Shown: one piece after another, positions 7,459 through 62,243 of the stretch
How the letters are laid out: each line of letters starts with the position of its first letter
Position numbering within the stretch: position 1 is the stretch's first letter
Assembly (NCBI RefSeq): GCF_036785885.1
Contig: NC_092329.1
Span: 5,766,001 to 5,830,000 of the forward strand
DNA: 64,000 nt
Source: Coffea arabica
Taxonomy: Eukaryota > Streptophyta > Magnoliopsida > Gentianales > Rubiaceae
Direction of reading: 5' to 3'
Position numbers and translations under genes: made by a program
Notes under the pieces: generated by a model
Told to the model about the DNA's origin: nothing
Database searches by the model: none
Seen by the model: the letters and a program-made list of their open reading frames with translations, nothing else

Positions 7459-7945
7459 GTTGTGATCCTGGTGTTTTGGGAATGTTCTTTGCCACCTGCA
7501 CCACTGGGGAATCGACTGTACGAGGAAAACAGAGGATTTCCCACTGTAGTGCGTGCGTACCACGTTGGCTTACCACTACTTTTTATATTTTACCTTCACT
7601 TGGTCCATAATTTTTGCAGCTCAAGGATGTGAAAAAGTCCGTGCCGTCCTGATTCCATTGTAATGTAAGCTGGTCAAAGCTACAAGCCGGTTATATACGA
7701 CGCTACTCCAAGAAAGGAGAAAAATATAAGCAAAGCAAGGAGGCCGTAAAGGATGGATATCAGTAGCAGATCATTGACAGATAAGATACTAATATTCAAG
7801 AATGAGAGGGCCGTATCCCTTACGTCAAAGGAGTTTTGAATCTTGATTACTGATACATTCTTGAAATAACAATAATGAATTACTAGATAAAATAGGCATA
7901 CGGCATAAGTATCATTCCAACACTTTGGATTTAACCTCGATCTCT
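7459..7945. other. intergenic, putative promoter region of the next CYP81 gene
   Basis: The first 70 bases continue the homologous P450 3' flank. The remainder is spacer upstream of the ATG at 7946. I see no TATA box that I would assign with confidence. Confidence 0.5.
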
Positions 7946-18434: not shown

Positions 18435-18709
18435 TGTATAGTATAGCTCGTAATGGTTTTAATCTACTCATAACAAATTCACTCTCCCAAACTCAAAAGT
18501 CATCTTTGTATATAGAATTTAGCCAACGATTATAATTGCACATTTTAATAGGAAGTTTCATAGGCTGGCTGTCAATTGCAACCTTACAAGAAAACGAGAT
18601 GAAGACCACTCAGAGTCACAAGTCCAACAATAAATCCACTAACTCTCATTAATTAAACCCCATCCATCATTCAATCCCAAATAAACCAGCAAGAAATCCG
18701 CAACTATCC
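18435..18709. promoter_or_regulatory. upstream region of the CYP81 gene at 18710
   Basis: This is the 275-base spacer between the Harbinger element and the ATG. The element therefore sits in the putative promoter. No clear TATA box is seen. Confidence 0.35.
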
Positions 18710-27565: not shown

Positions 27566-30500
27566 TTAAGGGTAATACAATCTAAGGTTCTCAGCATGCC
27601 ACGTTTGAGGCACCCGAGAACCATCCTGATAAGCTAATTTACAATATCCGTTTTGGCTGGACTCAACAACCCGGTAGGGTCCCTCCCACTTAGGGCTAAG
27701 TTTTCCTTGTGGTTCAGCTCGGCTGACCGAATTCTTCCGGAGCACTAGGTCTCCCGGACTGAACCGTAGGTGTTTGACCCGAGCGTTGAAGTTGCCAGTT
27801 AAGATATTTTTATAAAGGGCAACTTTGCCGGCTGCCATATCACGCTTCTCTTCGACGAGGTCGAGATCAACTCGCCGCTCTTCTTCATTAACTTCGGCAG
27901 CGTATGCGGGCATTCGTGGGTTCGGCGTGATGAACTCGGCTGGGACCACAGTTTCGGACCCATACGTTAAAGAGAACGGGGTCTCTTGTGTTGCCGACCT
28001 CGGGGTGGTCCTGTAAGACCACAAAACGCTGGGGAGTTCTTCCACACAAGACGATCCAACTCGGTGTAGTCTGGTTTTGAGACCATGAAGGAGAGTGCGG
28101 TTGAAATTTTTGGCCTGTCCGTTGGCCTGAGGGTGTCCGACCTAGGTGAAATGCTGTTTGATTCCCAGGTTTTCACACCATGCCTTGAAGGGGTTATCAG
28201 TAAACTGTCTTCCATTATCCGAGATGACCACCCGGGGTAGACCGAAGCGGCAAACTACGCTCTTCCAGAAGAACTTTTGAACCGCTAATCCGGTGATACT
28301 TCTCAAAGGCTCGGCCTCGACCCATTTGGTGAAGTAATCTACTGCCACCACCGCGTATGCAAAATTGCCTGGGGCTCTGAGGAATGGCCCGATTATATCA
28401 GTCCCCCATTGTTCGAATGACCATGGCGAGGTGATGAGAATCATGAGGTTCGTCGGCTGATGGTGCTCAGGGGCGTGGTGCTGGCAAGCAGGACAGCTAA
28501 AGACCATGATCTGGGCATCTACCCTCATGGTGGGCCAGAAATATCCTAGCAACAAAGCTTTTTTGACGAGCATCCTGTAGCCGACGTGAGCACCACAGAG
28601 TCCCTCGTGTATATCCTGAATGACCCTTTGGCCCTCTTCTGGTGTGATACACCGCAACCACGGGCCGAGGTATGACCTCTTGTACAGGAGATTGTCCCAG
28701 AGAACGTATCGAGCTGCTTTACGTTGCAGTTTTCTGGACTCAGCTTGGTCTTCGGGAAGTTCACCCTGGCAGAGAAATCGAACTAGCGGTCCCATTCAGG
28801 TGTCCCCTGGATAAATGGGATATACGACTTCCCCAATATATCCCGGCTCGGCTAAGACCTCCACAAGAACCGTTTTGTACAGGTCAGAAAAAGAGGTAGA
28901 AGCGAGCCGGGAGAGGGCATCTGCCCTCTTGTTCTGTGACCGCGGTATCCTTTGGATTTCGAAAGACTCGAAGTGTGCCACCAGCTGGAGGACTTTGGAG
29001 AGGTAGCGATGCATCACCTCTTCCTTGGCCTCGTATTCGCCTAGTATTTGGCACACGACGAGTTGGGAGTCACTATAGACCAAGATGTGCGCGGCACCGA
29101 GCTTACGAGCTAGCTGCAGGCCGGCAATAACAGCTTCGTATTCAGCTTCATTGTTGGAAGCAGCGAAGTCAAATCTCAGAGCATATGAACATATTTCTCC
29201 TTTGGGGTCTTCGAGGAGCAAACCTGCCCCACTGCCCTCGCTATTGGACGAACCGTCCACATGCAAGATCCAGCGTTGAAGCTCGGCAGTAACTGGGGTG
29301 GTAATCGGAGAGGCTTTATTTGTCTCATCAAAAGTGAGCTCAGCTAGAAAGTCTGCGAGAGCCTGAGCCTTGATTGCGGTACGAGGTTCGTAAGACAGGT
29401 CGTACTCTCCCAGTTCGATGGCCCACTTGGTGAGGCGTCCAGAAGCCTCTGGCCGTGATAAGACTTGCCGAAGTGGTTGGTCAGTTCTCAAGCAGATGTG
29501 GTGGGCTAAGAAGTAGGGCTTAAGCCTACGGGCTGCATGGATTAAGGCCAGCACGAGCTTCTCCGCCTGAGTATATCTGGTCTCCGGACCTCGGAGGACT
29601 CGGCTGACATAATAAACAGGTATTTGTACACCTTCTTCCCTTATCAACACGGCACTTACAGCTTCGGCTGCAGCAGATAAGTACAAGAATAACTTGTCCC
29701 CTGGACGAGGTGAGGTGAGTGTTGGGAGATGATGAAGGTATTCCTTCAGTTGTTCGAAGGCTTGTTGACATTCCTTGGTCCAGGAGAAGCTGTCCGCCTT
29801 TTTTAGGATCTTGAAAAATGGCAACGCCTTGGAAGCTGATTGCGATAAGAATCGATTCAGGGCGGCCAACCGCCCTGTCAGCCTCTGGACATCACGGATG
29901 CACCGAGGTGGAGACATTTCTTGAATTACTTTCACCTTGTCTGGGTTTGCTTCGATACCCCGTCTCGAGACGAGGTATCCCAGAAATTTCCCCGAAATGA
30001 CCCCGAAGACGCATTTCTTGGGGTTCAGCATCATCCGCGTCTTCCGGAGGACCTCAAAGACTTCTCTCAGGTCGGAGAGGAAGGACGAGGTCGTCTGGCT
30101 CTTGAGGAGGATGTCGTCCACGTAGATTTCGACATTTCGCCCGATCTGGACTTTGAAAGTTTGGTTGACCAAGCGTTGATACGTGGCCCCGGCATTCTTT
30201 AGCCCAAAGGGCATCGTGGTGTAGCAATAGGTGCCTTGGTCAGTGTAGAAGGCAGTCTTCTCCTGATCTTCCTGACTCATGCCTATCTGGTGATACCCCT
30301 TAAAGGCGTCAAGAAAACAGAGGATCTCATAACCCATAGCCGAGTCCACCAAGGTGTCGATTTTGGGCAATGGGTAGCAATCCTTGGGACAAGCTTTGTT
30401 GAGGTCGGTAAAGTCGACGCACATCCTCCAAGCCCCGGTGTCCTTCTTGACCATGACCGGGTTGGATAACCAGGTCGGATATTGGACCACCCGGATTATT

Positions 30501-31318
30501 TTTGCAGGTAGGAGCTTGTCCACTTCTTCACCGACAGCTCGGCTCCGTTCAGGGCCGATGTGTCTTCTTTTCTGTTTAATCGGGCGGATCTGGGGATCAA
30601 CGTTCAGCTCATGTATCATGAGGTGTTGTGGGACTCCTTGGACCACATCGGCGGCCCAGGCAAAGACGTTCCGGTATTCTTTGAGGATGTCCACCATCTC
30701 TTTTTTAATCGGACCGGGCAGTCCGGTGTCGACGCGGACCGTCTGATCAAGCTTCATGGGGTCCAGGGAAATTTCTTCCACCTCATCCCCAGCCTCCATC
30801 ATAGGGATCTTCCCAGCCTGCTGAGGATCGATGCAATCTATAGAGAGGATATTTGACCTCTTCTCGGGCCTCGCACTGGAGGTAGATGGGGAGGTTGCTT
30901 GTAGAGTGACGAGGTAGCACTCCTGGGCCGCACAAATATCGCTGCTGATCTCGGCAACCCCCGCGGGAGTAGGAAACTTAAAGTTCAGGTGGTAGGTGGA
31001 ATATACCGCCCGCAGAGCATTAAGCGTGGGCCGACCTAGGAGCAGGTTGTATGGGGAGTCGGTCTTAACCACTACGAAATTCACAGGGATAGTTCGGCAA
31101 CGGTGGTGACGCCCCACGGTCACCGTCAGGGCCACCATTCCCTCTGGATGCACAATGTGTCCCCCAAATCCTACAAGAGGGGTTCTCACCGGGGTCATGT
31201 GCTCTCTGGCCAACTTGAGGCTCTCGAATGTACGAAGGCACATAACATCCACTGAGCTCCCTGGGTCGATGTAAACCTTCTGGACGATATAGTTGTTGGT
31301 GAGCAATTCGATCACCAA
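27566..31318 (-). mobile_element. pol region of the Tat-lineage element
   Basis: The domain order on the minus strand begins with a retroviral-type aspartic protease (DPGSSVDVMC near the right end) and a reverse transcriptase with the YVDDILLKS catalytic motif. An RNase H and a second, plant-type RNase H (HVDGSSNSEGSGAGLLL, EAEYEAVIAGL, YSDSQLVV) follow. Integrase comes last, with an HHCC-like zinc region and catalytic core motifs (GTDIIGPF, ISDNGRQF). The dual RNase H assigns it to the Tat branch. It is a fossil with some breaks in its integrase part. Confidence 0.88.
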
Positions 31319-31499
31319 AGTTTCGTGGCTACTCGAAGCAGCTGGGACGGGGTCACTGGGTCCGTAAGTGATTACCTCGGATAGTCGAGAATTTGACTCG
31401 GCTTGTTTCGGGTTGGCCTGTCTATAGTTCCTCTTCCGGGAGTTCTGACTATCCCCTCCCGTCGGACCTCCTGCAATAGTATTAATTACTCCGGCAATG

Positions 31500-33020
31500 T
31501 TTGGCCCATATCCTAACCCCTGACCTGAAAATTCGTCTCGGGAGGCCTTTTTGTCTCCCTAGGATCCTCTGGGGGTCTACAACTGCTTCTCGATGTTCGC
31601 CTCTCGTCTCGGCGTTGGTCACCTCGTTTGTCACGTCGGTTCTCATCACGTCCACCTCGGCGGATGAACCGCTTTAGGTGCCCCTGTCTAATGAGGTTCT
31701 CGATCTCCCTTTTGAGATCGTTACAGTCCTCGGTTTCGTGCCCTATATCACGGTGATATAAGCAGTAGAGGTTCGAGTTCCTTTTGTCTCTGCTGCCGTA
31801 CATCTTAGGGGGGCCTTCCCGAGGTTGTTTTGTTCCATTACGGATAACACCCGAGACCGGGTGGTGTTCAGGGGAGTCAGTTCGGACTCAGGGATGGGTG
31901 ACTTCCCCTTGGAGATCCTGTCAAATACACTGCGGCGATCTCGGCCTGGACTCTGGAAGCCGCCTCCTGTTCCCGTTTCACTTCGGCCAAGCTCCTTCCC
32001 TCTTCGGGGGTCAGCCCTCGGATGGGCAGCTTGGACTTCTTTCTTCATGCGGTTGAGGTCCTCGGCCTGTATGCCCTTCTCGACCTTCAACCATAGTTCG
32101 TGGAGTGTGCGGGGATACTTCTTGTGGATCCCCGTGTTGAATACCCCGGACACAAGTCCATGGGTGAAAGCAGCAATGGTGACCTGCTCATTGGGGTCAG
32201 GTATCTGAACGCTTTCTTCATGGAACCTCTGAACATACGACCGAAGTGACTTTCCCGGGTTCTGCTGCATGTTCAGCAAGTAAGCCGAGGTCCTGGTCGT
32301 AGGTCGGGAGGAGATGAACCGATGGAGAAATCTTTCCACCAATTCCCCCAGGGTTGAGATGCTCCTAGGTTCTAATCCCCAGAACCATTTTCGAGCAGTC
32401 CCCTGGAGGAATACCGGAAAAGCTCGGCATATGACAGGGTCAGGGATGCAGTATAAATGGAAGGCCGAGATGAAAACATGGATGTGATCCTCGGGATCAC
32501 CTCGGCTGTCATAAGATGGTATAGAGGGGAGATTGAAATTGGGAGGAAGTCTTTCCTCGTTGATATCGTCGGTAAAAGGTGGAGCTCTCATGTAATTCAC
32601 CCCGGGCGTTCCCAACAATCGAGGTTCTTCCTCAGGTCGTCGCCCTAAAAGTCCTCGTGAGAATGCCTTGGTCAGGGAGGCTACCTTAGAAGTGGCCTTA
32701 GAGAATGCCCGCTTCGAAGCACTCCGGCTTAGGCGCCTCCCATCAGATTCCTCGTCAGATGAACCTTCAGGGGATCCATCTGACTTCCTTTTGGAGGACT
32801 CAGCTTTCTGCTTGCCCTGCTTTTTTAGGTACCTCCCCAATTCCTCAAAGATGTTGGGGTTCTCGGTTACAAACTCGGCCATACGTGTTATGGCTTCTTC
32901 GTTTGCGGGCTGAGTCCTTGGGGACTCCTGCCCTTCTGAAATATCTTCCTGTTGAGCTGCATTGCTTTGCTCAGCCCCAATAGTGAGAGCTTTTCTGCTC
33001 TTAGAACGCGTAGGCTTCAT
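31500..33020 (-). mobile_element. gag region of the Tat-lineage element
   Basis: The minus-strand start at 33020 follows the primer-binding site closely. The protein has a basic Ser-rich N-terminal part and a retrotransposon gag core (FPVFLQGTARKWFWGLEPRS and FISSRPTTRTSAYLLNMQQ). A zinc-knuckle-like Cys/His cluster (CLYHRDIGHETEDC) lies near its end, which would bind the element RNA. Confidence 0.85.
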
Positions 33021-33037
33021 ATTCTGATATCTTCACG

Positions 33038-36956: not shown

Positions 36957-38684
36957 TGTATATATATGTACCCTTCCTTTCTTCATCCAGTGTTGGGAAT
37001 ATTGCAACAAACTGGCAAATATTGTGACAAGAATTGGTTTCAAATCGTGATAGAATATCATTTTTTCTTTGGACTTTATTTGTTCGGTATAACATGCAAT
37101 AACTTTGGATAAATATCTTTTAGGATAAGATGAAATTTATTTGTCTTAAATTCTTATACAAAATAAGACAACCCCTCCTGAACTAAGGAGTGATTTTTGA
37201 GAGAATTCAAAATAGTAGGAAAGTAATTTTCTGCCACAAATCACTCTCTACTTGACCTCTTTATATAGAAGAGATTGTTTAAGAAATAAATGAACTTAAT
37301 AAATACTTATATGAATAGATTCAATGTATTGTATACAAATTCTTATATTCTAATTCATGCATCACATGATTCTATGATTAAATACATGAATCTATCCTTA
37401 CATTTAAGGATCCCTACATACATGAATATATTCATGAATGAATATACATTTATCATAATGTATGTACATCTTATAATCATTTGATTCGTAATACAATACA
37501 TGTATGTACATCATACAAATTTTGAAAATTTCCAACAATCCAAATGTTATATTTTGTCAAAATAGGAATGCAATTCAATATTTGTTAAAAAGCAAATTTT
37601 GATTTTTCCAATTCAAATTGTTACATTAAAAAAAATTATGTATCCAACTGTTGTAAAGCTGTTTTTAATAGATATTATAGTCACGAATATGTGAATGTGA
37701 GAAACAATAAGAATTTAACTAACTTAAGCACGTGGCCTGGACTAAAAGGGGTTCTAATGTATACTTATCAACCAGTATTCAAGAGACACACTAATATGTG
37801 TTTAACTAATAGAAAAAAATAGTTGTAACATATTTTGAGTATATTTATTGAAATCATTTTCAAAAAAAATTAGTTTTATATTTTCGCAATGCATATGTAA
37901 AAAATTTATTAAAGTAAAAGTTATAAAAAAATCAATTATTTGGTAGTTGTTCATAACCATAAAAGGTCGTTGCTAATTAAAATTAAAATTTACTAAATGA
38001 GTTGAAAAATAGAATATTAAAAAATACATAACACTTGGTAAGAAATTATAGTGGTAGTGGGTAGTTATTAAAGATTGATAGATTTTTTATTTATACCAAA
38101 AGGCCCCTCATCGTCAAGGATAGTTTAGAAAATATATAAAGTAACTGATTTTTATTTACCCCAACCCCCTTCCTCTCTCTCTCTTAAACTTTCAAAAACT
38201 GCTAGTTGTTCTTTGGATTCCGTTGGAAATTCTTTAGAACCTAATTCTATTAGAAAAAGGGGGTTATGAACAATGAGTGCTTGTGCTGCTAACGCCAGAT
38301 CCTTAAAAGGAGGAAGGTGCATTGAACTACAACTAAATTAGTCCAATCAAATCTATATTGTTCTCGCGTAATTTGCCTGTACTTGGACTTTTGTAAACAG
38401 CATTTACAGGATACTAATTAACAATAACAAGCTTTTGATTGTACACACCAAATTTTTTATTGTTGTTTTTACCTTTTAGATTTTAACAAAGCCTCGTATA
38501 AGATTAATTCAACGTTTATATTATTGTCTAAGGCATGCGATATTGACCTCAACAAAACTGAGCCTTGAAGACCATGCTTAAACCTAAATTGATTAATGTT
38601 AAACAAAAAGAAAAGGAGACTAGTATTCTCAGATAAAAGTTTTTATCAAACAAGCCTGTAGAATCATCAAGAAACTCCACTTCC
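36957..38684. other. AT-rich intergenic spacer
   Basis: No gene or clear element is seen. Several ATGAAT/TACAT words recur at 37270-37500. This is the upstream region of the CYP81 gene at 38685. Confidence 0.5.
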
Positions 38685-40600
38685 ATGTTTTCCATGGAAA
38701 CTCTGTATCTGTATCTGCCTCTTCTGATCTTAGCCCTTCAGATTTTGACCAACCGAATCCTTCACAAGATTCAAAATCTTCCACCATCCCCTTTTCCAGC
38801 CCTGCCATTTCTTGGCCATCTCTATTTACTCAAGAAACCTTTCCATAAATCTTTATCAGCGCTCTCTAGCCGCTATGGTCCAGTTCTTTCCCTCAGGCTA
38901 GGCTGTATCCCGGTTGTTCTCGTCTCATCTCCATTGGCAGCTGAAGAATGCTTAGCCAAAAATGATATCATTTTTGCAAATCGTCCCAACTTTCTCAATG
39001 GGAAATACTTTGGCTACAATTATACCAGCCTCCCCTGGTCCTCCTACGGTGAACATTGGAGGAACCTCCGCAAGATTTCATCTCTTGAAGTTTTGTCATC
39101 CCACAAACTACAGTTGTTGTCAGCTATTCGTGCTGATGAGGTCTTGTCTTTGATTCGGAAGCTGTTTCGAGTTTCCGTGGAAGATCCTGGTCAATTCGCT
39201 GATATGAGATCAGCTTGCTTTGATCTCACATTCAATGTTATGACTAGGATGATTACTGGAAATAGGTACTATGGAGAAAATATAGAGAACTCAGAAGAGG
39301 CTAGAATTTTCCATGAGATAACTTCTGAGGCAGCAAAGGTGAATCCCAAGGCCAATGTTCTTGATTTCTTGCCCTTCATGCGGTGGTTTGGATTGAGAGA
39401 CGTGGTGGAAAAGATGAGTGAAATACAGGAGAGAAGAGACAAGTTTATGCAGAACGTAATTGATGAACATCGTGCTCGTGCTGGTGCTTCAGGAGAGAAG
39501 AGAACCATGATCGGAGCTTTATTGGATTTGCATGAAAAGGAACCTGAGTACTACAGTGAGGAAACTATAAGAAACCTCATGTTGGTAAGTAGTAATCCAG
39601 ATCCAGTAGTTTTTCTTTCCCGTTTTCTTTATCTGGAATCTAATTTTCATTGGCCGTCAGTTTTCTACACTTCAATTGATCGTTCTGTTACAGTTTTTAC
39701 TAGTAGCTGCAGTAGGATTTCAGTAGGGAAGGCAAAAAATGAGTTGCAAACATGGTAGAAACTGATTGAACAAATTGTTGGCTCTTAGTGGAAAAGTCAG
39801 TTGGAAAGGCGAAGGAATAGTTGTGCTCTACAGGGCTCTCTAGCCTCATTAGCACTCTTCTGAAGTGTGCAAAAACTATTTGCTGCATAAGTATGGTCCC
39901 TACCTAATTTTCTGCTCGCCATTCCTAACATTATTTGAAACGAAAACTTAAACAGGTACTACTACAAGCAGGATCAGATACAACTGCCAGTACAATGGAG
40001 TGGGCAATGGCATACTTGCTGGACAATCCAGAGGTTTTAAAGAAGGCACAGGCTGAAATTGACCAAGAAGTGGGACAAGGGCGTTTCATTGCTGAATGTG
40101 ATCTGCCTCAACTTCCTTACCTCCGCTGCATAATAAATGAGACCCTGCGTTTGCAGCCTGTAACGCCACTTCTGATGCCTCACAAAGCTTCCCAAGATTG
40201 CATCGTTGGAGGCTATCGAGTTCCACGCGGAACCGTTCTGTTTGTGAATGCTTGGGACATACAACATAATTCCAGGTACTGGGATGATCCTGAGAAGTTC
40301 ATGCCTCAGAGATTTGAAGCATGGGTCGGAGGAAAAGAGGAGTTCAAGTTTATTCCCTTTGGCTCGGGGAGAAGAGGCTGTCCTGGAAATAACTTGGCAA
40401 TCCATGTTCTTGGATTGGCTTTGGGATCATTACTCCAGAGCTTCAACTGGGAAACCAGGGATGGTAAGAAGATGGACATGAGTGAAGGAATAGGAGTTCC
40501 TGTGCACAGGGTTCAGCCTTTGGTGGCTAAATGTTGTCCACGGCCAAACATGTTGAAACTTCTCTCCCAAATTTCAACCAAGTCCGCATGCTTGCACTGA
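38685..40600 (+). CDS. CYP81-family cytochrome P450 (514 aa, two exons)
   Basis: This gene encodes an ER-anchored monooxygenase. Exon 1 (38685-39584, donor GTAAGT) encodes a hydrophobic anchor, the hinge NLPPSPFPALPFLGHLY and the C-helix WRNLRK. Exon 2 (39956-40600, acceptor AAACAG) encodes QAGSDTTASTMEW with D308-T309, ETLR, and the haem loop FGSGRRGCPG with Cys442. The PERF motif reads PQRF here, so the usual glutamate of that segment is replaced by glutamine. The family partner residues in ETLR are intact. A second in-frame ATG at 38694 aligns better with the paralogue at 18710 and could be the true start. The 371-base intron has no insertion. The substrate is unknown. Confidence 0.9.
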
Positions 40601-46508: not shown

Positions 46509-49500
46509 ATGGGCTCAGTTTCACCTGAAGACCCAACACCTTCAAAAGACGAAGAAGCCTGCCATCTTCTATCCTCCTCCTCTCTACCCTCACCTTCACC
46601 GTCGCCGTTAGTTGACGCCAGCTTAAGAAAATGTCTACCTGAACAAGAAGAAGAAGAAGAAGTGGCATACGAATCCCGAGATAAAATTTTGGTCTTGGAT
46701 ATTGAATTAGACGGTGCAGATTACTCAACAGTGCCACCTTTCTCGTTCAAGAAATTATGGTTATTTACCGGTCCGGGTTTTCTAATGAGTATAGCGTTTC
46801 TAGATCCGGGTAATTTAGAAGGGGATTTACAAGCGGGTGCAATTGCGGGTTATTCTTTATTATGGTTGTTAATGTGGGCCACGGCAATGGGCCTACTGAT
46901 ACAGCTTTTGTCGGCGAGGATTGGTGTGGCGACCGGGAAACACTTGGCTGAGCTTTGCCGGGAAGAGTATCCGAATTGGGCTCGGATTTTGCTTTGGTTC
47001 ATGGCGGAGGTAGCTTTAATTGGAGCTGATATTCAGGAGGTTATTGGGAGTGCTATTGCTATTCAGATTCTTAGCCGGGGGGTTTTGCCCTTGTGGGCGG
47101 GAGTTTTGATTACTGCCTCTGACTGGTACTTTCCTTAACAAAAAAAAAAAAAAAGATTTTTTTGGGTGTTATTGCTGGTGGTTTTTTTTTTTAATTGAAT
47201 TTACTTGGTTTTGCTGGTATTCTGAGTTTAATGACTGCTTCTGGTTGGTAAATCTGAAAAAATTTATATATATATATATATATATTGTGTTTTTCTAGTT
47301 GAATTTTCTGAAATTTAGAAGTTTGTTCAGCTAGGATTGTTGGCTTTTAAGTGATGCTTACACATTGTTTTTTCTATTTTGTGATAAGTAAATTAGTATT
47401 GCTTGGGAAAATGATGCTTAAAAACGGTCTGTTTTAAGATCTTATTGGTCTTTAGTAGTCAATTTGCTTTAAAATTACTATTTGTGTTGGAAAAAGATTG
47501 TTGGAGGTGGAATTAGGTCTAATAGGTCCTTCTAACATGTTGTTTTCGTAATAATGATTTGGGTCCTGCAGAGGTTATTCCCTTGTTTTGCATCTAGGTG
47601 TTTTTGCTGAGATTGTTACGTGAAATACATTGGTTTTGCATCCTATCTGTTTCTGCACATTGTCATTTAATTGATATGCTGCATTTCGGCAGATTGAAAT
47701 TAGTGTTAGATTTTGTATGGGACTTTTATTAGCGTTAGTCTTTTTAGGGCTTTTGCTTTCTGCTTGGAGTGCTTAAATTGTTTTAATTTTATTATTGAAA
47801 GATAAGAATTTTGGTATGTTTGTTCTGAAACCAATTACGGCTGAGGTTTATAGCTCCATTGGCTGAAATACTTTTTAGTTCTTTTCATTCTAACTTGGAT
47901 TTTATTATTACAGTTTTATATTTTTGCTTGTTGAGAACTATGGAGTGAGGAAGTTGGAAGCTGTTTTTGCAGTTCTTATCTTGACCATGGCTATATCCTT
48001 TGCTTGGATGTTTGGTGACACAAAGCCCAGTAGAAATGAACTTCTAATAGGTCTTTTGGTACCAAAGCTCAGCTCAAGAACTATTCATCAGGCTGTTGGA
48101 GTAGTAGGTTGTGTTATAATGCCTCACAATGTTTTTTTGCATTCTGCTTTGGTACAATCAAGGAAAATTGACCCCAACAAGAAAGGGCAGGTTCGAGAAG
48201 CACTCACTTACTACTCAATTGAATCTTCAGTCGCCCTCCTTGTTTCCTTCATGATTAATGTATTTGTAACAACTGTTTTTGCCAAGGGGTTTTACGGTAG
48301 TAAACAAGCTGATAGTATAGGGTTAGTAAATGCTGGACAATATCTTCAAGAGAAATATGGTGGAGGATTGTTCCCCATTCTCTACATTTGGGGTATTGGA
48401 TTATTAGCAGCTGGACAAAGTAGCACCATAACTGGAACTTATGCTGGCCAGTTTATCATGGGAGGTTTTCTAAACCTTCGTCTGAAGAAATGGTTGAGGG
48501 CATTGATCACTCGTAGTTGTGCCATTTTGCCTACTGTTGTGGTAGCCCTTGTTTTCAACAGATCTGAGTCATCACTGGATGTTCTAAATGAATGGCTTAA
48601 TGTGCTTCAGTCCATACAGATACCTTTCGCTCTTATTCCACTTCTCACCTTGGTTTCGAAGGAACAGGTTATGGGAGTCTTTCGAATTGGGCCCACTCTG
48701 GAGGTAAATCAATGATTTCTCTGATTTATCATTTTAGTGCATACAGCTGTTTGTTTTGGAAATATACGTTTTCTAAGATGACAGAGATTCCTCATGACAG
48801 TTGAATACGTCATCCAGAGTTTGAACAAACTTAGTTTGCTTAAAATAATACGGTTTGGGGCTTGTAATGTCAGTTAATTTGGAAGCTTAAATCAAAATGA
48901 ATGGATTATGGAGAAAAATAATAATTTTCATGGCTCCACAGGTTTTAAGGCTGAAGTGATTGGAAAATTCTTCAATTTCTGAGTTGTTGCAATCTAAATG
49001 AGTAAATTTTGAGGAACATGTATGGGATGTCAAAGAGAGGGGACTGCCCTGATGCTCCAATTAGAGTGATAGACATATGATTTCTTTTTTTAAAGTTGCA
49101 TTTGGTTTCAATTTGTCCAATTGCTGCTCAACTGTGCTTTGCTTAAACTAAGCTTACTGTGGGATAACTCAGCTATATCTCCCTTTTCTTTTCTTTTCTT
49201 TTTCATTTTTGTTTTAAATCTTGGCAGCCATTATTGCAATTCTAAAGGTCAATATGATTTTAGTTGTTGGCAATTGGAGACTTATAACTACAGCTTGCAT
49301 CTGAAATTGAGCTGAGTAAGTGATGTAGTTGATTAAATATTTGGTCAGTGTAGTAGTACTACATGCTTGAATTCAGAATAAAGATTCATCTACATCAACT
49401 CTCATGTTTGGAAATTGTACATCCTTCATAGCACATGTTGTTTAACTTGTTTTGAGGATATGCTGTCATCCCCGATAACTTGTTTTGAGGATTTGCTGTT

Positions 49501-50475
49501 ATTCTCGATGATTGTTGCAAGTAAATATGTTAAATGGCTTTTAAACTGAAATTGCTGAACGATCAACTTCCTGGATAATTCCATGTTTTGAGATTCAGGT
49601 CTATAGAGTTTGTTGTCCATGTCATAAGAATGGATGTGGCATTTATTATACTTGTGCAATTCCTGTAATTATGTTCATCATCCTGACTTCCAGAGAATGT
49701 TTCACTCCATGAAATTCATGGAGTTGGCAAGGTTATGGTCTCTTTTACTGCCTTAGCCCTCCATCTTAATTGTACGTCACAAATTGACAGACTTGATCGA
49801 TCCTTGATTAGCTGATGGAAAGTTGCAGTATGCTTCTCACACTTGACCAGTCAAGTTATAAAATCCTTTCTTTTCTTGCTTGGAGCATGCCATCCCTTTT
49901 CTGCTTTGCATCTTTAAAAGTTGTTCTGATTTGGCAGCCAATTCTGTCGGGTTCAGTTTTCCATATCAGTTTTAAAGCAATAATGAAATCACTAACTTTT
50001 CAAGCCAAGTTTTCCTCCAAAATTTTGTTTATTGCTGAATAAGTAGATAACAAACTCAAGATTCAGTCTATTTTCTTCAGCAGCTTTGTAGTTAATTTGC
50101 CACTAGTCTACAGCTGCATATATTATTCCATTAGCTGTTTGCAGTTCTGGTGAATTTGGCGATCATTGGATATACAAGTCCCAACCATATTAATTGCCAA
50201 AACTAGCAATTTGATTCCCCATCTTCTTATGTTGTTTACTTGTGTTGCAGAAAGTAGCTTGGACCGTGGCTGCCCTGGTGATAGTGATTAATGGGTATCT
50301 TTTGCTAGACTTTTTCTCCTCTGAAGTTCATGGATTGCTCTTTGGTTTCCTGGTTTGTGCGGGAACTGTTGCATATCTAGCATTTATCTTATATCTGATA
50401 TCGCGTGGTGGTGGTCCTTTTTCAAATTGGATCAACATACCACTCTTCAAGGTGTTTACAACATCTGGAAATTAA
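46509..50475 (+). CDS. NRAMP metal transporter (543 aa, three exons)
   Basis: This gene encodes a proton-coupled divalent metal transporter of the plant NRAMP2/3/4 group, which moves Fe2+ and Mn2+ across an endomembrane. The exons are 46509-47125, 47914-48703 and 50251-50475. The N-terminus is hydrophilic, with an acidic dileucine-type signal (E16-ACH-L20-L21) like the tonoplast-sorting signal of Arabidopsis NRAMP3/4, followed by a glutamate run. Helix 1 has the metal-binding DPGN motif (Asp99), and helix 6 has the canonical [13 protein letters not shown] with Met275. The family transport signature [13 protein letters not shown] is present. The length is normal. Compared with the paralogue at 59161-62243, the intron after the LLIG codons is absent, so three exons do the work of four. 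Function from family: release or handling of vacuolar Fe/Mn. Confidence 0.92.
47126..47913 (+). other. first intron of the NRAMP gene
   Basis: This 788-base intron lies between GACTG and TTTTATA with a GT donor and a TTACAG acceptor. It contains a TA microsatellite at about 47264-47285 and nothing else of note. Confidence 0.8.
48704..50250 (+). other. second intron of the NRAMP gene
   Basis: This intron of 1.5 kb has a GTAAAT donor and a TTGCAG acceptor. It is T-rich and I see no repeat element in it. Confidence 0.75.
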
Positions 50476-52388
50476 GGCAAAAACTTCTTCTTTAGGTCAA
50501 GAATTAAAATTATCACAAAAAACGTTGAGCAATCACAGCCATGGGGCTGATGGAACATGACCCTGCACTTACTTGACCTGATACACGCTTTGACCAGGAT
50601 TTCCTCCCAATGGCGTTCTCTATTCACAATGACAATACAGTCTGAAAGTAAAATTTTGTGCATAAGTGTACAATTACAGTGAGTGCTTCAGAACGGATGA
50701 AATTTGTAAATCTATTGTTGGGGAGATGTACCTAATTCATTGAGATGGAACGGGGCTTTTACAGCTGGAGAAGGTGATCCTCTAATGCCGTTGACCAGAT
50801 ATTGAAAGGATCTTGTGAAAAGAATGGGACGTGTTCTCTGCATGATGAAGGTGATGCTCTGGCTTCGTTTGTGCAATTCTTGTTACGTGTCAATTATACT
50901 CGAATAGATAGATGTACATTTATCAAAAATTGCCCCATTTTTTTTTGTGTGTAAAGAACTGAGATATTTTATTTCCAGAAGACAATACCATTATTGGAAT
51001 AGACAGGAGGGACTAGCCTTTGGGATGACACTGCAAATTGCTATAGTGGACACCTCGGATCTTTGGATATCTTTTCTTTAAAAGAATTTGAGATCTTTTT
51101 CCTTGACCTTACTGATTTCTCTTTTTCCTTTTAGTCATTCTGCTTTTGGCTGGTTAACTGGAGAAAATCATGCTACCTGGGAATGGACATCTCTCATCTT
51201 TTCTTGTAAATAATTAGAGAATCTTTCCTTGACCTTACGGGTATCTCCATCTTCTTTGAATCATTCTGCTCTTGGCTGCTCAGCTAGAGAAAATCATGTT
51301 CACTTGGAAATGGCCATTTCTCATGTAAAAGTTCTGAGAATTATGCTTTTTCAAGTCTTTCTCCGTGTTTTGTATGACATGGACTGCAACCGTTAACATC
51401 ACTACATATCCTACTCTTCAAGTAGAGTTCTTTTTAATCATTCCGCAATCCCTTTAAGAATTTACATCCCTACTTTTCAAGAATTGGCTAAGGAAGAGAA
51501 AAAAATTTTAACAAAAAAGTAAGCTGTCGTACGTGTTTACCTTTCTTGATTTAGAGTATGCAAAGAATTGGTAGTTCGTAAATCCATAGTTGGTAACGTT
51601 ACCCATTTCCAAATCTTGCCAGAAAAAAGCAGGGGTAGTTGTTACATCCCTTTGCTTGCCCAATCCTTCCAGATTTTCGACGGATAACATCTCAGACCTT
51701 TTTTAAGCAGGTGGACATTTGACATGGACGCCAGGATACTTCTTGAGTAGGTGGGCTACCGACAAAGGGGACAGTATGATAGATGGGATCAGTTGTCAAT
51801 GGGGGGACCCAAGATTTCATTTACTCGCGTTAATAGTTAGAGGCTGTTTCCGTTGACAAACTACAAGACTGATGATCATATGATTGAATGACTGCTACAG
51901 TTCTAAATGAAATTCTGGATCTGTCTAGTTGATTTTACATCTTCTATATATCACATGATTCACATCCTCGACAATACTTTGTATACAATGCCCCCACAAA
52001 TAGGTTCCAGTCACTTATTGCCAATTATTGTCCTGGAAATCACCCTAAATCGTACTCTTTCTCCAATTATGGAGACAGCCCAACTATATCTTTGATTTCT
52101 TGAGATCTGTTTCACGATTTGATAAGTAACGTAGTATAGAATTTTGACATGCACGGATGGCATAAACATCATCATTCATGAACGACAAATCCAGGAACAG
52201 AACAAAAACAAGTATTGGAATTTAATTGAATCAATGACCAAGAGTACAAAAGTGGACATAATCAATCAATTCTAGGCAACAGAAAAGTTGCCTCTGGCAT
52301 GATTTCATCCATTCAACCGGAAAAAGAAGATAACAGAGACATTAATTGCATGATGACTTCTCCCCTAAGAAGCTATACCTATCATCTT
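50476..52388. other. intergenic spacer
   Basis: The first few hundred bases are probably the NRAMP 3' UTR. A tandem-like similarity (TTTCCTTGACCTTAC at 51100 and 51227, each followed by a TCATTCTGCT stretch) marks a small local duplication. No gene is seen. Confidence 0.5.
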
Positions 52389-52397
52389 CTATATATG
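52389..52397 (+). promoter_or_regulatory. possible TATA box of the CYP81 gene at 52451
   Basis: CTATATATG lies 54-62 bases upstream of the ATG, which leaves a leader of about 30 bases. The assignment is tentative. Confidence 0.35.
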
Positions 52398-52450
52398 CCC
52401 AGTATTGCTACGCACCTTTTGCCCCAGAAAGAGAGGTGACAGGAGAAACA

Positions 52451-54133
52451 ATGGAATTATCTAATTCCTGCATTACATTTCTTGCCATCTCCATTATATT
52501 CATCTTGAACTTACTCATAAGAAAACGGGCATTGCAGAAAAAGCAACCTCCAAGCCCACCTTCACTTCCTCTCATAGGCCACCTTCATCTTCTGAAAGAA
52601 CCACTCAATCAGACCCTACAATCACTTTGCACCAAGTATGGTGACATCTTGCTTCTCCGGCTAGGTGTCCGTAAGGTCCTTATTGTCACCTCACCTTCAG
52701 CAGCCGAAGAATGCTTCACCAAGAATGATATTATATTCGCTAACCGTCCAAAAACCATGTCGTCCAAACACTTCAGCTACAATTACACCACCATCAGTGT
52801 AGCCCCTTATGGAGATCATTGGCGCAACCTTCGCCGTTTAGCAGCACTGGAGATATTCTCTCCAGCTCGAATGGCCTCGTTTGCCAGCACGCGAAGGAAG
52901 GAACTAATGCTGCTGCTAAGTGAACTGATGCAAAAGTGTAGTGTTGGTGGAGGATCAGCAAAGGTGGACTTGACTTCCATGTCTGCTGAGATTACCTTCA
53001 ATATCCTGTCCATGACATTGGCCGGAAAGAGATATTATGGAGAGAATGCGGCGGATGATGAAGAGGCTAGGAAGACAAAGCTTCTGATAAAGGAGATGCT
53101 TGTGAATAGTGTAAGGTCAAATCTGGGGGATTATTTGCCTATCTTGAGGTGGATTAATTATAAGGGAGTGGAGCAAAAGTTCTCAACTTTGATGAAAAGG
53201 GTTGACAAATTTATACAGGATTTGGTAGATGAACGTAGGCTACGTTTATCATCTACCAGTTCTATAAATGTGAGCCGTGGACAGGCAGAGAAGACCACCT
53301 TGATTGATCACTTGCTCTCCTTACAAAAAGAGGAACCTGAATACTATACAGATCAGCTCATAAAAGGGATTGTAATGGTAAGTGCTGCATTCAAGTTGGG
53401 CTTCTATCATAGTGTTTACATTTATTTGTTAGATATATCAAGGAAAAAAGCATTATTTTGTCATGAGAAAGAAGGAATTGATCATTCATGCTTCTTCACT
53501 CTTGATATTTTACAGGTGTTGTTGATTGCTGCAACAGATACAGTATCAATAACCATGGAATGGGCCATGGCTCTGCTCCTAAACCATCCTGAGGCTATCA
53601 AGAAGATCAAAGCTGAAATAGATGATCATGTTCCGGATAACAGGCTACTAGAAGAGCAAGACTTGCCAAAGTTGGCTTACCTACAAAATGTAGTCAAGGA
53701 GACCCTGCGTTTGTATCCACCAATTCCATTTATGATCCCTCATGAAGCCTCTCAAGATTGTACAGTGGCAGGTTATTATGTATCAAAGGGTACAATGTTG
53801 CTGGTGAATTTGTGGGCTATTCATAGAGACCCCAAGCAGTGGGAGAATCCAACAAAGTTTATACCAGAGAGGCATGAAGGGAGGAGAGTGGATGAGTATA
53901 GTCTAATGCCATTTGGTGCCGGAAGGAGGGGTTGTCCGGGGGCAGGGCTGGGAACTAGGATTCTGGAATTGGTGTTGGGGACACTTGTTCAGGTATTTGA
54001 GTGGGAACGAACCAGTGGAGAGTTAGTGGACATGACTGAAGGTAAAGGGTTCAGCCTTCCAAAACTCAAGCCATTGGAAGCTATTTGCAGACCTCGACAA
54101 GCCGTAGTTCAGCACTCTCTTGTACGCTTTTGA
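52451..54133 (+). CDS. CYP81-family cytochrome P450 (514 aa, two exons)
   Basis: This gene encodes an ER-anchored monooxygenase. Exon 1 (52451-53377, donor GTAAGT) encodes the anchor, the hinge QPPSPPSLPLIGHLH and WRNLRR. Exon 2 (53516-54133, acceptor TTACAG) encodes the I-helix IAATDTVSITMEW, ETLR, PERH and the haem loop FGAGRRGCPG with Cys449. The I-helix has alanine (Ala315) where its paralogues and most P450s have glycine, while the oxygen-activating threonine is kept. PERF has become PERH. The intron is only 138 bases, a multiple of three, with no in-frame stop, so an unspliced message would read on as a protein of about 560 residues. It is the most diverged CYP81 here by eye, and closest in style to its neighbour at 55306. 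The substrate is unknown. Confidence 0.9.
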   Translation: MELSNSCITFLAISIIFILNLLIRKRALQKKQPPSPPSLPLIGHLHLLKEPLNQTLQSLCTKYGDILLLRLGVRKVLIVTSPSAAEECFTKNDIIFANRPKTMSSKHFSYNYTTISVAPYGDHWRNLRRLAALEIFSPARMASFASTRRKELMLLLSELMQKCSVGGGSAKVDLTSMSAEITFNILSMTLAGKRYYGENAADDEEARKTKLLIKEMLVNSVRSNLGDYLPILRWINYKGVEQKFSTLMKRVDKFIQDLVDERRLRLSSTSSINVSRGQAEKTTLIDHLLSLQKEEPEYYTDQLIKGIVMVSAAFKLGFYHSVYIYLLDISRKKALFCHEKEGIDHSCFFTLDILQVLLIAATDTVSITMEWAMALLLNHPEAIKKIKAEIDDHVPDNRLLEEQDLPKLAYLQNVVKETLRLYPPIPFMIPHEASQDCTVAGYYVSKGTMLLVNLWAIHRDPKQWENPTKFIPERHEGRRVDEYSLMPFGAGRRGCPGAGLGTRILELVLGTLVQVFEWERTSGELVDMTEGKGFSLPKLKPLEAICRPRQAVVQHSLVRF

Positions 54134-55245: not shown

Positions 55246-55305
55246 GGAAACTTGGACAAGGCAATTGTGCACTCAACCATTGCTTAACCTCATCCTCGTA
55301 AAATC

Positions 55306-57260
55306 ATGGAAGCGGAAATGTCCTGGTATTACTGCATTTCCCTACTATCCTTTTTCTTGCTAATTCTCACCCTGTCAAAACTCTTCCTCAGGAAAAGAAG
55401 GCAGTGCAACAATGTACCACCAGGCCCACCTTCATTCCCAATCATAGGGCATCTTCATCTGCTAAAAGAACCTTTGCACAAAAGGTTACAGCAACTTTCT
55501 CATAAATATGGTCACATATTTTCCTTAAAGCTGGGATACAGATCAGTGGTTGTCATATCTTCACCATCGGCTTTTGAGGAATGCTTCACAACTAATGACG
55601 TAGTTTTTGCCAATAGGCCTCGTTTTCTTGTTGGCAAGCACCTCAACTATAACTTCACCACAGTGGGAACAGCCCCGTATGGCCCTCTTTGGAGGAACCT
55701 TCGCCGCATTACTACCCTGGAGATCTTCTCAAGAGGTAGACTCAACATGTTCTTGAACATTCGGCAAGAAGAAGTGAAGTTACTAGTAAAAGATCTTTAT
55801 CAAAGATCAAGCCCAAGTTCTTCAAAGGTTGAGATGAAGTCTAGGTTCTCGGAGCTATCATTTAACATCATTATGAGGATGGTAACAAACAAGCGATACT
55901 TTGGAGCTGAAGTGCAGAACAATGAACAGGCTAAGCACTTCCGAGATATAATAAGGGAATTGTCTGAATTGAGTGGAGCATCAAATCCAGGGGACTTCCT
56001 GCCAATTTTGCAATGGATTGATTTTCAGCAGATTGAGAAGAAAATGCTGAAATTGCAGGAAAGTATGGATGAAGTCTTGCAGAGCCTGATAGACGATTGT
56101 CGAAATAAGTGTAGAGAATCTCAGACGGAACACAAAGTGGCAGGGAGAGATACAATCATTGACTCAATGCTTTCCATGCAAGAAGAAGAACCTGAGTACT
56201 ATACTGATGAAATCATCAAAGGCATTGTTCTGGTATGTTTCCTAACCATAACTTTCAGTCAGGGAAGATTGTTAACTCCAGTTTTCAGGTGTCCAACCAC
56301 ACTGTTGTATAGCAACATTGACACCAAGAACTAACAAATAACTAAAGGTTAAAACCCTCATTTGATCATCTCCTAAACCAAAGAACAATTAGATATTATC
56401 TAACCAGAATTTTCCTTTAAAGCTAAATGCTACTTCACGCTATATGGGTCTTCTGATTTGGAATTAATCTCAATTGAATTAATGTCAGACTAAAAGAACA
56501 ATTTCTTGAGCAAATAAAACAAAAAAAATTCCATTTGGTCACATGCTAGATATTGACAATTAGGGGCTGTTCTGTACTTCTGTTTCCTAATTTCCCTTTT
56601 ATTGCTACTCTGACTTCAATGTTTCTCAAATGCTCCAAGATACTGTTAATGGCTGGCACAGACACTTCAGCTGTAACAATGGAATGGGCCATGTCGCTTC
56701 TTCTCAATCATCCTGAGGTGTTGAGGAAGGCAAGAGTTGAGCTAGACAACTTTGTAGGTCAAGATCGTCTAGTAGATGAATCAGATCTTCCTAAGCTGAC
56801 TTATATCCAAGCCATTGTCAACGAAACATTACGATTGTTTCCAGCAGTGCCACTCCTATCACCGCATGAGTCGTCGGCTGAGTGCTCCATCGGAGGCTAT
56901 TATGTACCCTCTAACACAATGTTGCTTGTTAATGCCTGGGCCATTCACAGAGACCCTGAATTATGGGATGATCCCACCAGTTTCAAGCCAGAAAGATTCG
57001 AGGGGCTGGAAGCTGATACCTACAAGTTGAAGTTGATACCATTTGGCATGGGAAGGAGGGGCTGTCCTGGTGCTGGTCTTGCCAATCGCGTGGTGACATT
57101 GGCTCTGGGAGCATTGATCCAATGCTTTGACTGGGATAAGGTTAGCCAGGATTTGGAAGACATGACTGAAGGTTCAGGCCTCACAATGCCTAAAGCCAAG
57201 CCATTGGAGGCGATGTGCAGAGCTCGTGAAAAGATGACTAAAATCCTGAAAGAACTATGA
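55306..57260 (+). CDS. CYP81-family cytochrome P450 (515 aa, two exons)
   Basis: This gene encodes an ER-anchored monooxygenase. Exon 1 (55306-56232, donor GTATGT) encodes the anchor, the hinge [16 protein letters not shown] and WRNLRR. Exon 2 (56640-57260) encodes [14 protein letters not shown] with D317-T318, the ETLR motif, PERF and the haem loop [10 protein letters not shown] with Cys451. All P450 hallmarks are present. The acceptor at TCCAAG (56639) keeps the frame and the conserved spacing to the I-helix, but its polypyrimidine tract is modest. The sequence is close to that of typical CYP81 isoflavone hydroxylase-like enzymes; the substrate cannot be named. A second in-frame ATG at 55318 is possible but gives a shorter anchor. 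Confidence 0.9.
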
Positions 57261-59160: not shown

Positions 59161-61908
59161 ATGATCCATGCAACCCCCAACAATCACCCAGAACAAGAAG
59201 AAGATCAAGAATCCAATATCCTTATTCCTTTGTCATCATCAACGGCTACCCATGATTACGTTGATGAAGCCCGTGAGAAAATCTTGGCTCTGGAAATTGA
59301 AACAGAGGAGCCATCATCATCCCATGGTAATTCCGACGAAGAAGAGGCAAAAGCACCAGCATTTTCCTGGAGGAAGCTATGGGAATTTACTGGGCCGGGC
59401 TTTCTAATGAGCGTGGCATTTCTTGATCCGGGAAACTTGGAGGGTGATCTGCAGGCTGGGGCTATTGCGGGCTACTCACTTTTGTGGTTGTTGATGTGGT
59501 CTACTGTGATGGGACTTTTGATCCAGCTCCTGTCTCTGAGGCTGGGTGTCGCCACGGGCCGGCACTTGGCTGAGCTGTGTAGGGAGGAGTACCCCTATTG
59601 GGCTGGGCTTTTGTTGTGGTTAATGGCTGAGCTGGCATTGATCGGAGCTGATATTCAGGAGGTGATTGGCAGTGCTATAGCCATAAACATTTTGAGTCAT
59701 GGGGTCTTTCCTCTTTGGGCTGGTGTCCTCATTACTGCTGCTGATTGGTGAGGTTTTGTCTTCCCCTTGTTGCTAATTAATTTTATGGCTAGGGATTTGA
59801 TTTGTAGAACTCAGCTTATTGGTTATAAAAGATCCATATGGGCATGATGTCCAGAGTTGTTAACTGTTTTAAGTAAATTAAGGAAAGCTCTGAACTTGGG
59901 GAAATGTGAATTAAGTTGAACTAGAACTCTAGAAGGTACTGAAGTATGTCTTTGCTTGTGGCTATGGCATAGAATGTGACTTTCAGGGGACTAAATGAAC
60001 TTCATCCTAATGTTACCATAAGCACATAAAAGTCGCTGTTCCTAAGGCATTGGTAGAAAGTTGCTTTAGAAAAACCAGTGAAGCACATTTTGTTGGCAGA
60101 GAAATTTGGAGGGCAAACCTCTACATCATTGACAGATACACATAACAGAGGGAAGCTTTTATAGACCCAAGGAGAAGATGGGGATTACTTGTGGAGACAA
60201 TAAAAATTGTGTCTTGTGTTGGCCTTGTAGCTCCTGAACTTAGATTGTACCATGCACATGAAATTTTGATGACCGAAATATATTTTTCTGGACAACGGTT
60301 GATTATTAGGTGAAGTTAATCCTATCAAAGGCCAAAGGATGTTGTTAATGCAATTTTTTTAGGTAAATGTTCATTGTTCAAAACTCTTGGCCCAGGAATT
60401 GAAAATTTTTCAATTTCTTTTGGTCTTTAACGAGTATCATTTTACAAATATTATTGCTTTGGATGATAAACTAATAACGTTACTTTAAAAAAATTCGTTT
60501 TGCCTAAACTTGCTCTAGCTTTATTATTAGTTCCGTTCACTTGGAGATACAAATATATGTGGCAGAGGTGACAGAATTTTCAATTCAAGTTCTTATTGCA
60601 CATATTTTTTTATTTTTTATCAAATATTATTGAGAACAGGATGAAGGAACAATTTGGTTGGTTATGTTCTTTTCTGGTGATAAGTTTCTTTACTGTCATT
60701 TGTCTCTCAACCATTAGACTTTTTCTTTACACGTTCTCATTGCATATATATGGCATTTTTTCTTGCCAATATATATATATATATCTTTATTAAGTTGTAA
60801 GTGAAGCATTTGGCTTTCAAATGTTCTTCTAAAAGGAATCTGATTTCCAACATCTTGCGTCCTATCTCGAAATCTTGGTGATTCCTCACGCTCAAGTTTT
60901 CATCATCAGTACCATACTTGAACCTGCTAAAATGCAACTTTGTTCTGTTATCTAATGTGTTTTTGCTGGCATGAACAGTTTCATCTTCTTGTTTCTTGAA
61001 AACTACGGAGTTAGAAAACTAGAAGCTGTTTTTGCTATCCTAATCACAACAATGGCACTATCTTTTGCCTGGATGTTTGCTGACACAAAGCCTAGCACTA
61101 AAGAACTCACACTAGGTTAGAATTTTGCTTTATTTGGCATGCCTTTTGTCCAATGGGATAAAATTCTTCTTTATCTTGTTCAATTAATTAAGATGTCATC
61201 CTTGTGCAGGTCTTTTAGTACCAAGACTGAGCTCGAAGACGATTCAGAAAGCAGTGGGAGTTGTCGGTTGTGTCATAACCCCTCACAATGTCTTTCTTTA
61301 TTCTGCTTTGGTGCAGTCAAGGAAGATTGATGCCAAAAATAAAGGGAAGGTCAAAGAGGCTCTCAATTACTACACCATTGAATCTTGCATTGCTGTTCTT
61401 GTCTCTTTCACTATTAATTTGTTTGTCACAGCAGTCTTTGCAAAAGGATTTTATGGCAGTTCACAAGCCAGTACTATAGGCCTGGTGAATGCAGGGCAAT
61501 ATCTTCAACAGAGGTATGGTGGAGGTTTGTTCCCTATTCTCTATATCTGGGGCATTGGGCTTCTGGCAGCTGGCCAAAGTAGCACCATGACTGGTACATA
61601 TGCTGGACAGTTCATAATGGGAGGTTTCCTCAACCTTCGTATGCAGAAATGGATGCGATCATTGATTACGAGAAGTTGTGCCATTGTACCAACCATAATT
61701 GTGGCAATTGTCTTCAATAGAACTGAAGATTCGTTGGATGTCTTGAACGAATGGCTTAACGTGCTTCAGGGTATGCAGATCCCATTTGCCCTCATTCCAC
61801 TGCTCACATTGGTATCGAACGAGCGTGTCATGGGAGTCTTCAAAATTGGAACTGCTATGGGGGTAAGGAAGGATTAAGACTCAGATTCTGGATTGGAACT
61901 TAAGATGC

Positions 61909-61939
<31 letters not shown>

Positions 61940-62243
61940 GCACACATTTGTTTCAGCGAACTCCTTAGTGCTTCAGCATGTCTAATTTCCTACTTCTTCC
62001 CGATCTGTGCTGTAGAGAACTGTCTGGACCGTGGCTGCCCTTGTGATAGTGATAAATGGATATGTTTTGCTGGACTTCTTTAAATCTGAAGTTGAAGGAC
62101 CATTATTGGGATTGGTGGTCTGTCTGGGGACATTAGCATATTTGGCTTTCATTTTATACCTCATCTCACATGGTGGTAGCCTGCCTATGACCAATCTGTT
62201 CAGCCACATGCACTCTACTGGATTTGCCCAGCTCAAGAGCTAA
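59161..62243 (+). CDS. NRAMP metal transporter with an altered helix-6 motif (534 aa, four exons)
   Basis: This gene is a paralogue of the one at 46509-50475. The exons are 59161-59747, 60979-61115, 61210-61862 and 62016-62243, all with GT-AG junctions. The N-terminus has a dileucine-type signal (E17-SNI-L21-I22), and helix 1 keeps DPGN (Asp89). Helix 6 reads [13 protein letters not shown]: the metal-coordinating methionine of the MPH motif is threonine here (Thr265, codon ACC at 61278-61280). Two bases differ from the ATG of the paralogue. The rest of the core is highly similar (about 86% in helices 1-5 by eye), and no frame damage is visible, so the gene looks functional. Loss of the soft sulphur ligand is expected to change metal preference. 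An AATAAA signal lies at 62267-62272. Confidence 0.92.
59748..60978 (+). other. first intron of the second NRAMP gene
   Basis: This 1.2-kb intron has a GTGAGG donor and a GAACAG acceptor. It contains a TA microsatellite near 60768-60784. No repeat element is recognised. Confidence 0.75.
61907..61945. repeat. CT/CA microsatellite in the third NRAMP intron
   Basis: A run of CT dinucleotides is followed by a run of CA dinucleotides within the 153-base intron between exons 3 and 4. Confidence 0.9.

Follow-up and report, generated by a model that had tools for sequence, protein, structure and literature searches.

Gene B, one of two NRAMP genes in the window (the whole 64,000-nucleotide stretch of DNA that was analysed), carries threonine where the metal-binding methionine of helix 6 is expected and tyrosine where the second helix-6b histidine is expected, and both residues are retained in its neighbour, gene A. 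We tentatively propose, with somewhat less than even confidence, that gene B encodes a group II NRAMP whose function has diverged, in that its Fe and Mn transport is impaired, hard ions are kept out less strictly and the coupling to protons is altered, and that gene A is ordinary. Gene B probably no longer moves Fe and Mn normally. Work on the selectivity and proton coupling of NRAMPs has so far relied mostly on point mutants made in the laboratory, and genes A and B form a natural pair, with both residues changed in one copy and kept in the other, in which to approach the gain of ion preference and the basis of coupling. Plant handling of Cd and Al also depends on these residues. The exons and relevant codons of the two genes are as follows.

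46509..47125, + strand: gene A (the canonical paralogue), exon 1
47914..48703, + strand: gene A, exon 2, equivalent to gene B exons 2 and 3 without an intron between them
48119..48121, + strand: gene A codon ATG, Met275
48140..48142, + strand: gene A codon CAT, His282
50251..50475, + strand: gene A, exon 3 and stop
59161..59747, + strand: gene B, exon 1, N-terminus to helix 4 region; open reading frame with ATG and GT donor
59425..59436, + strand: gene B, canonical DPGN of helix 1 (D89-P90-G91-N92), from translation and residue mapping
60979..61115, + strand: gene B, exon 2; AG acceptor, GT donor, frame continuous
61210..61862, + strand: gene B, exon 3, helix 6 onward; AG acceptor, GT donor, frame continuous
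61278..61280, + strand: gene B codon ACC, Thr265, where the metal-binding Met of helix 6 is expected
61284..61286, + strand: gene B codon CAC, His267, the first helix-6b histidine, retained
61299..61301, + strand: gene B codon TAT, Tyr272, where the second helix-6b histidine is expected
62016..62243, + strand: gene B, exon 4 and stop

The original prediction described a threonine-for-methionine change in an otherwise intact tandem paralogue. The codons at 61278-61280 (ACC, gene B) and 48119-48121 (ATG, gene A) bear out the change, which gives VITPHN in helix 6 of gene B compared to VIMPHN in gene A, and the residue affected is the metal-coordinating methionine of NRAMPs, as had been stated. 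Gene B was also found to be intact, with four exons, GT-AG introns and 534 amino acids free of internal stops. The two genes, described as tandem, lie 8.7 kb apart on the forward strand with two P450 genes in between. Overlooked in the prediction was the second swap, His to Tyr at residue 272, seven residues after Thr265 (FLYSALV in gene B, FLHSALV in gene A). Five solved NRAMP chains were aligned with gene B, among them those named NRAMP2 and NRAMP1, which we take to be human, and all five have LHS where gene B has LYS. The other three chains were SiNRAT (8ONT) and two ScaDMT records (5M95, 5M94). The change from ATG to ACC takes two steps, via Thr (ACG) or Ile (ATC), so one of these residues may have been at position 265 for some time. 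The path ATG-ACG-ACC would consist of one amino-acid change and one silent change.

The gene B protein matched the Pfam Nramp profile PF01566 with E = 1.1e-110 (profile positions 2-356 of 357, protein residues 94-455) and the solved chain 9f6n, named NRAMP2, with E = 1.3e-135; 384 of 523 aligned residues (73%) are identical between A and B. Gene A encodes 543 amino acids in three exons and gene B 534 in four, with GT-AG ends at all five introns and no internal stop in either protein. Gene A is uninterrupted at 48050/48051, where gene B carries the intron 61116-61209, and AtNRAMP3 and AtNRAMP4 likewise differ in exon number, with four and three respectively (PMC6158261). Plant NRAMP group II, to which AtNRAMP2/3/4/5 belong (PMC9234761, PMC6158261, PMC9866697), has 3-4 exons compared to 12-13 in group I (PMC6158261, PMC9866697), and the peanut proteins have a pI of 4.9-5.4 in subfamily I and 8.6-8.9 in subfamily II (PMC9866697). 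The predicted pI of 5.54 for both A and B lies slightly above the first of these ranges and far from the second, and together with the exon numbers this places both genes in plant group II. Dileucine-type sorting motifs take the form [DE]xxxL[LI], which is present in the N-termini of both proteins; shuffled N-termini reached it in 547 of 2000 cases for A and 248 of 2000 for B, and it was dropped as support because of this frequency.

Three acidic residues of helix 3 (E157, D164, E167) and the arginine R396 of helix 9, which corresponds to AtNRAMP3 R379, are retained in gene B and identical in A; exon 3 alone does not include helix 1 of the metal site. Instead of the A/CxxM signature of helix 6 as defined in PMC8806188, gene B has C262-V-I-T265, and of the two conserved helix-6b histidines only H267 is kept, the second being Y272. 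Lack of A/CxxM means that the site cannot be called canonical for a transition-metal NRAMP, but it does not exclude gene B from the family at large, in which NRATs and NRMTs are included. In EIN2 proteins an extended C-terminal signalling domain comes after the NRAMP-like domain, and gene B, with only 534 amino acids and the Nramp profile at 94-455, was rejected as an EIN2. It was likewise rejected as an NRMT, the Mg2+ transporters with the signature DxxG and TxxA/T (PMC8806188), because it has DxxN and CxxT instead.

The closest functional comparison was with AtNRAMP3 and AtNRAMP4, group II proteins of vacuolar Fe/Mn retrieval which share with gene B the 3-4 exons, the acidic protein, DPGN and the stretch GQSSTxTGTYAGQ.... 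Point mutants that change transport are tabulated for 20 positions of AtNRAMP3 (Table 1 of PMC5983769). We mapped these by a constant offset (+27 in A, +17 in B), for which the check was gene A's own matches rather than the AtNRAMP3 sequence, and found that gene A matches at 20/20 positions and gene B at 18/20, the only mismatches being M248 (T265 in gene B) and H255 (Y272). In that study M248S and H255A each abolished Fe and Mn transport and left partial Cd transport, M248A lost Fe transport in the table (partly kept according to the text) with Mn partial, and M248T is absent from the mutant set as presented there (PMC5983769). Results with threonine itself are reported for OsNramp5 M235T, where uptake fell to 9.3 +/- 14.6% of wild type for Mn and 14.6 +/- 0.3% for Cd (PMC11614607), and for OsNramp3 M241T, which lost Mn transport and gained no Al transport (PMC5949535). 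EcoDMT M235A transported Ca2+ but not Mg2+ (PMC8806188). At the second histidine, rat DMT1 H272 has been assigned to Fe/H+ coupling, although the same source describes it as structurally inaccessible from the outside and its role as unsettled (PMC5533754). DraNramp H237Q lost H+ transport but also failed to sample the outward-open state, so the proton defect may be conformational (PMC6398981).

These mutant data lead to the prediction of a transporter in which the Met to Thr change would remove the soft sulfur ligand at the metal site and the second histidine would be replaced by tyrosine. Without both residues, gene B would be expected to move Fe2+, Mn2+ and Cd2+ poorly, to be less effective at excluding hard divalent ions (Ca2+, for example), and to have weakened or altered proton coupling, while gene A would keep the ordinary Fe/Mn role. 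The unsettled role of the DMT1 histidine and the possible conformational origin of the H237Q defect argue against this explanation. The Thr and Tyr pair occurred in no mutant found in the covered parts of the cited papers, and the mutant evidence consists of single changes in other proteins; paired changes of this kind can compensate each other.

As a control, we assembled a panel of prokaryotic proteins from a genome scan, represented by the best 80 of its 125 relatives, and from genome searches with PF01566, which gave matches in 6/6, 20/60 (17 over the cut-off), 9/39 and 22/40 (20 over the cut-off) genomes. The 158 loci yielded 137 frames of at least 300 amino acids that matched gene A at E <= 1e-5, and merging of identical sequences gave 131 proteins; shorter frames and weaker relatives lie outside the panel. 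Proteins with the helix-1 D and N present (DxxN) were classed as canonical. There were 97 of these, 78 from the one similarity-biased, Bacillota-dominated scan (best 80 of 125) and 19 from the genome searches. With the scan relatives thus restricted to the best 80 of 125, Met at the helix-6 column and the first helix-6b His were each present in 97/97 canonical proteins, so that the Thr of gene B is more than chance. The second His was present in 82/97, with Gly in 14, Asn in one and Tyr in none (same panel, best 80 of 125 included), and its replacement in 15/97 indicates that loss of this residue is tolerated in nature and need not abolish function. The 31 panel proteins that lack Met (Thr in four) kept the helix-1 D and N in 0/31 cases and the first His in 0/31, Tyr at the second-His column occurred in 1/131, in a protein without Met, and the gene B combination of DPGN, first His, Thr and Tyr had no match among the 131 proteins, again counting the best 80 of 125 scan relatives.

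Glycine at the second helix-6b histidine was seen in 15 of the 80 scan loci (the best 80 of 125), all of them lactobacilli with MPHDLYLGSS and a canonical metal motif (L043, L050, L055 and 12 further loci). In four prokaryotic NRAMP-related loci (L106, L140, L146, L147) IGPGTV stands in place of the LDPGNL of gene B, and helix 6 contains VPYNLFL(H/Y/G), which resembles the TPYNLFLH of NRAT; it is L146 that has Tyr at the second-His column. EleNRMT and the prokaryotic NRAMP-related proteins resemble gene B in that Met is replaced (by Ala, Ser, Thr or Val) and the second His often is, but they lose DxxN and the first His as well (31/31 of the panel proteins without Met, best 80 of 125 included), both of which gene B keeps. 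No relative came out of a scan of genome contigs for which the complete A/B alignment was the query.

Variation at the methionine has been printed for plants. The peanut helix-6 motif is given as M(/T)PHNV(/L)FLHSS(/A)LVQ(/L)SF, with the Thr option uncommented in the text covered (PMC9866697), so that, as in gene B, Thr stands for Met in a dicot with PHN kept; the peanut motif retains the second His (FLHS) where gene B has Tyr, and the Thr-bearing member is not named in that text. A cacao study with motif analysis of 170 NRAMPs reports the Met as 86% conserved among the NRAMPs identified and names the group II protein AtNRAMP5 as lacking it (PMC6158261), and the conserved tomato stretch is MPHNL(/V/F)F(/Y)LHS (PMC11311520). 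The peanut motif and AtNRAMP5 make the Thr of gene B less unique. A natural NRAMP with both Thr and Tyr was not found in the literature text searched, where string searches pass over bracketed motifs and figures and supplements fall outside the scope, and the covered text of tea and bean NRAMP papers did not contain the helix-6 motif. Thr at the Met site of a dicot NRAMP is thus already in print, and it is the combination with Tyr that was not found in the literature searched.

A possible, though doubtful, alternative is that gene B has remained a normal Mn/Fe transporter, its swaps lowering affinity or being tolerated, and that A and B differ in expression or location. DraNramp M230T still transports Mn2+ and Cd2+, with lower affinity (PMC6398981), and SiNRAT, which has Thr at the Met site, transports Mn2+ with a Km of about 14 uM (PMC10115441); these two proteins and the Gly or Asn at the second His of 15/97 canonical prokaryotic NRAMPs (panel including the best 80 of 125) favour ordinary transport and count against divergence. 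Poplar NRAMP3.1 and 3.2 are, like A and B, neighbouring group II paralogues, both constrained and diverged in function; these tandem copies both transport metals in yeast, Mn among them, and differ in localisation, but they are 88% identical (PMC9234761), whereas A and B have 73% identity and silent sites close to saturation. The single changes in plant proteins described above (AtNRAMP3 M248S and H255A, OsNramp5 M235T, OsNramp3 M241T), which abolish or strongly reduce Fe or Mn transport, speak against an ordinary transporter.

The A/B duplication is old. Silent divergence was near saturation, with dS of 1.8-1.9 (NG86), 1.4 (LWL85) and 2.0 (YN00, core only), 103/169 fourfold sites different and silent divergence undefined through saturation in 2/11 sliding windows; dN was 0.14-0.18. 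DNA comparison gave four matches of 133-659 bases at 75-77% identity, all exonic and with none in introns or flanks, and a recent segmental duplication was ruled out on this basis. The dN/dS of about 0.07-0.13 is an average over both genes and not a value for B alone. With the prokaryotic consensus (panel including the best 80 of 125) as an outgroup, the departures were even, 8 being confined to A and 9 to B among 293 columns. In the same panel, again with the best 80 of 125 included, the 167 columns conserved at 80% gave 3 for A and 6 for B, B's six including both swaps, and the 103 columns conserved at 95% gave 3 and 4.

This record of constraint weighs on a further explanation, which we consider rather unlikely, that the gene B protein is transport-dead and either retained for a different function (sensing of metals or binding of a partner) or starting to decay. 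Two residues needed in AtNRAMP3 are changed together in gene B, as such a loss would have it. However, DPGN, the first His and 18/20 functional positions are kept, departures in B are not in excess of those in A (9 compared to 8 of 293 columns; panel including the best 80 of 125), and there is no stop, frameshift or bad splice site. In a simulation of neutral point mutation at 0.7 substitutions per site, copies acquired a mean of 20 stops and a minimum of 7 in 500 runs, so with 0 stops gene B was rejected as an old pseudogene drifting since the split. With 0.02 substitutions per site, no stop had yet arisen in 28% of the 500 simulated copies, and a recent loss of constraint is thus compatible with their absence. 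The reading of gene B as a diverged transporter draws on both swaps, the match to AtNRAMP3 at 18/20 positions compared to 20/20 in gene A, the losses in point mutants, the constraint, and the prokaryotic columns with Met in 97/97 and Tyr in 0/97 (panel including the best 80 of 125). A more specific form of divergence seems to us unlikely. Here a dicot group II NRAMP would have exchanged the soft metal ligand of helix 6 for a hydroxyl and the coupling histidine for tyrosine, with DPGN, the first His and the acidic residues of helix 3 retained, and would have become, independently of NRAT and NRMT, a natural endomembrane transporter that either carries hard ions (Ca2+, Mg2+ or Al3+) or is uncoupled from protons.

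The original prediction drew a parallel with the plant aluminium transporters of the NRAT type, which do have Thr at the Met position according to PMC10115441 and PMC5949535. OsNRAT1 is given Ala there in PMC6158261 and Thr in PMC5949535 and PMC11614607; we followed the latter two. Thr at the helix-6 metal site is thus common to gene B and NRAT1/SiNRAT, but the remainder of the helix-1 and helix-6 comparison differs, and the NRAT-like interpretation of the swap fails on five other hallmarks of these proteins (PMC10115441, PMC5949535). Gene B has DPGN in helix 1 rather than DPSN, CVIT in helix 6 rather than AxxT (AIIT), with Thr present and Cys as the first residue, and H267 rather than the Tyr that NRATs have at the first helix-6b His (PMC10115441). 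In helix 3, A163 aligns with the SiNRAT Asp near the site, and in helix 10 gene B has N425 at the Gln/Asn position occupied by Ser in SiNRAT (our numbering is one residue off that of the paper). With all five of these features absent, gene B was rejected as a member of NRAT. An independent origin of aluminium transport in gene B, outside the grass NRAT clade, is very improbable as well. CVIT and AIIT both end in Ile-Thr, with Thr at the motif-B position, and NRAT and gene B each have one helix-6b His changed to Tyr, the first in NRAT and the second in gene B, a parallel that is interesting but may mean nothing. The missing DPSN, whole AIIT, helix-3 Asp, helix-10 Ser and Tyr of ITPY argue against it. 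So do the failure of OsNramp3 M241T to gain Al transport, a partial gain requiring the whole motif to be changed to AIIT (PMC5949535), and the loss of Ga3+ interaction in SiNRAT S68A (PMC10115441), at whose position gene B has Gly. Least credible is that one of the codons, or both, results from a mistake in sequencing or assembly, since Y272 is one base from the His codon of gene A but T265 is two bases from its counterpart, and two errors at functional codons are unlikely in a gene whose 534-codon frame and splice sites are otherwise clean.

P450 genes or gene fragments, presumably of the CYP81 family, form an array on the forward strand (794-1303, 7865-8875, 18653-19636, 38637-40600, 52346-54133 and 55288-57260), and the NRAMP pair is located within this array or on its border. 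The six share about 37-58% mutual identity, and the four whose first-exon frames were scanned all matched the Pfam p450 profile. The window also contains a UDP-glycosyltransferase gene at 22601-23806 on the forward strand (PF00201, E = 1.1e-19). On the reverse strand are a retrotransposon at 27566-33032 with gag, reverse transcriptase and RNase H domains, beside which the frame 27566-28141 looks integrase-like with no Pfam match, a reverse-transcriptase-like RNase H fragment at 5302-5913, and a frame with a PPR repeat at 3875-4570.
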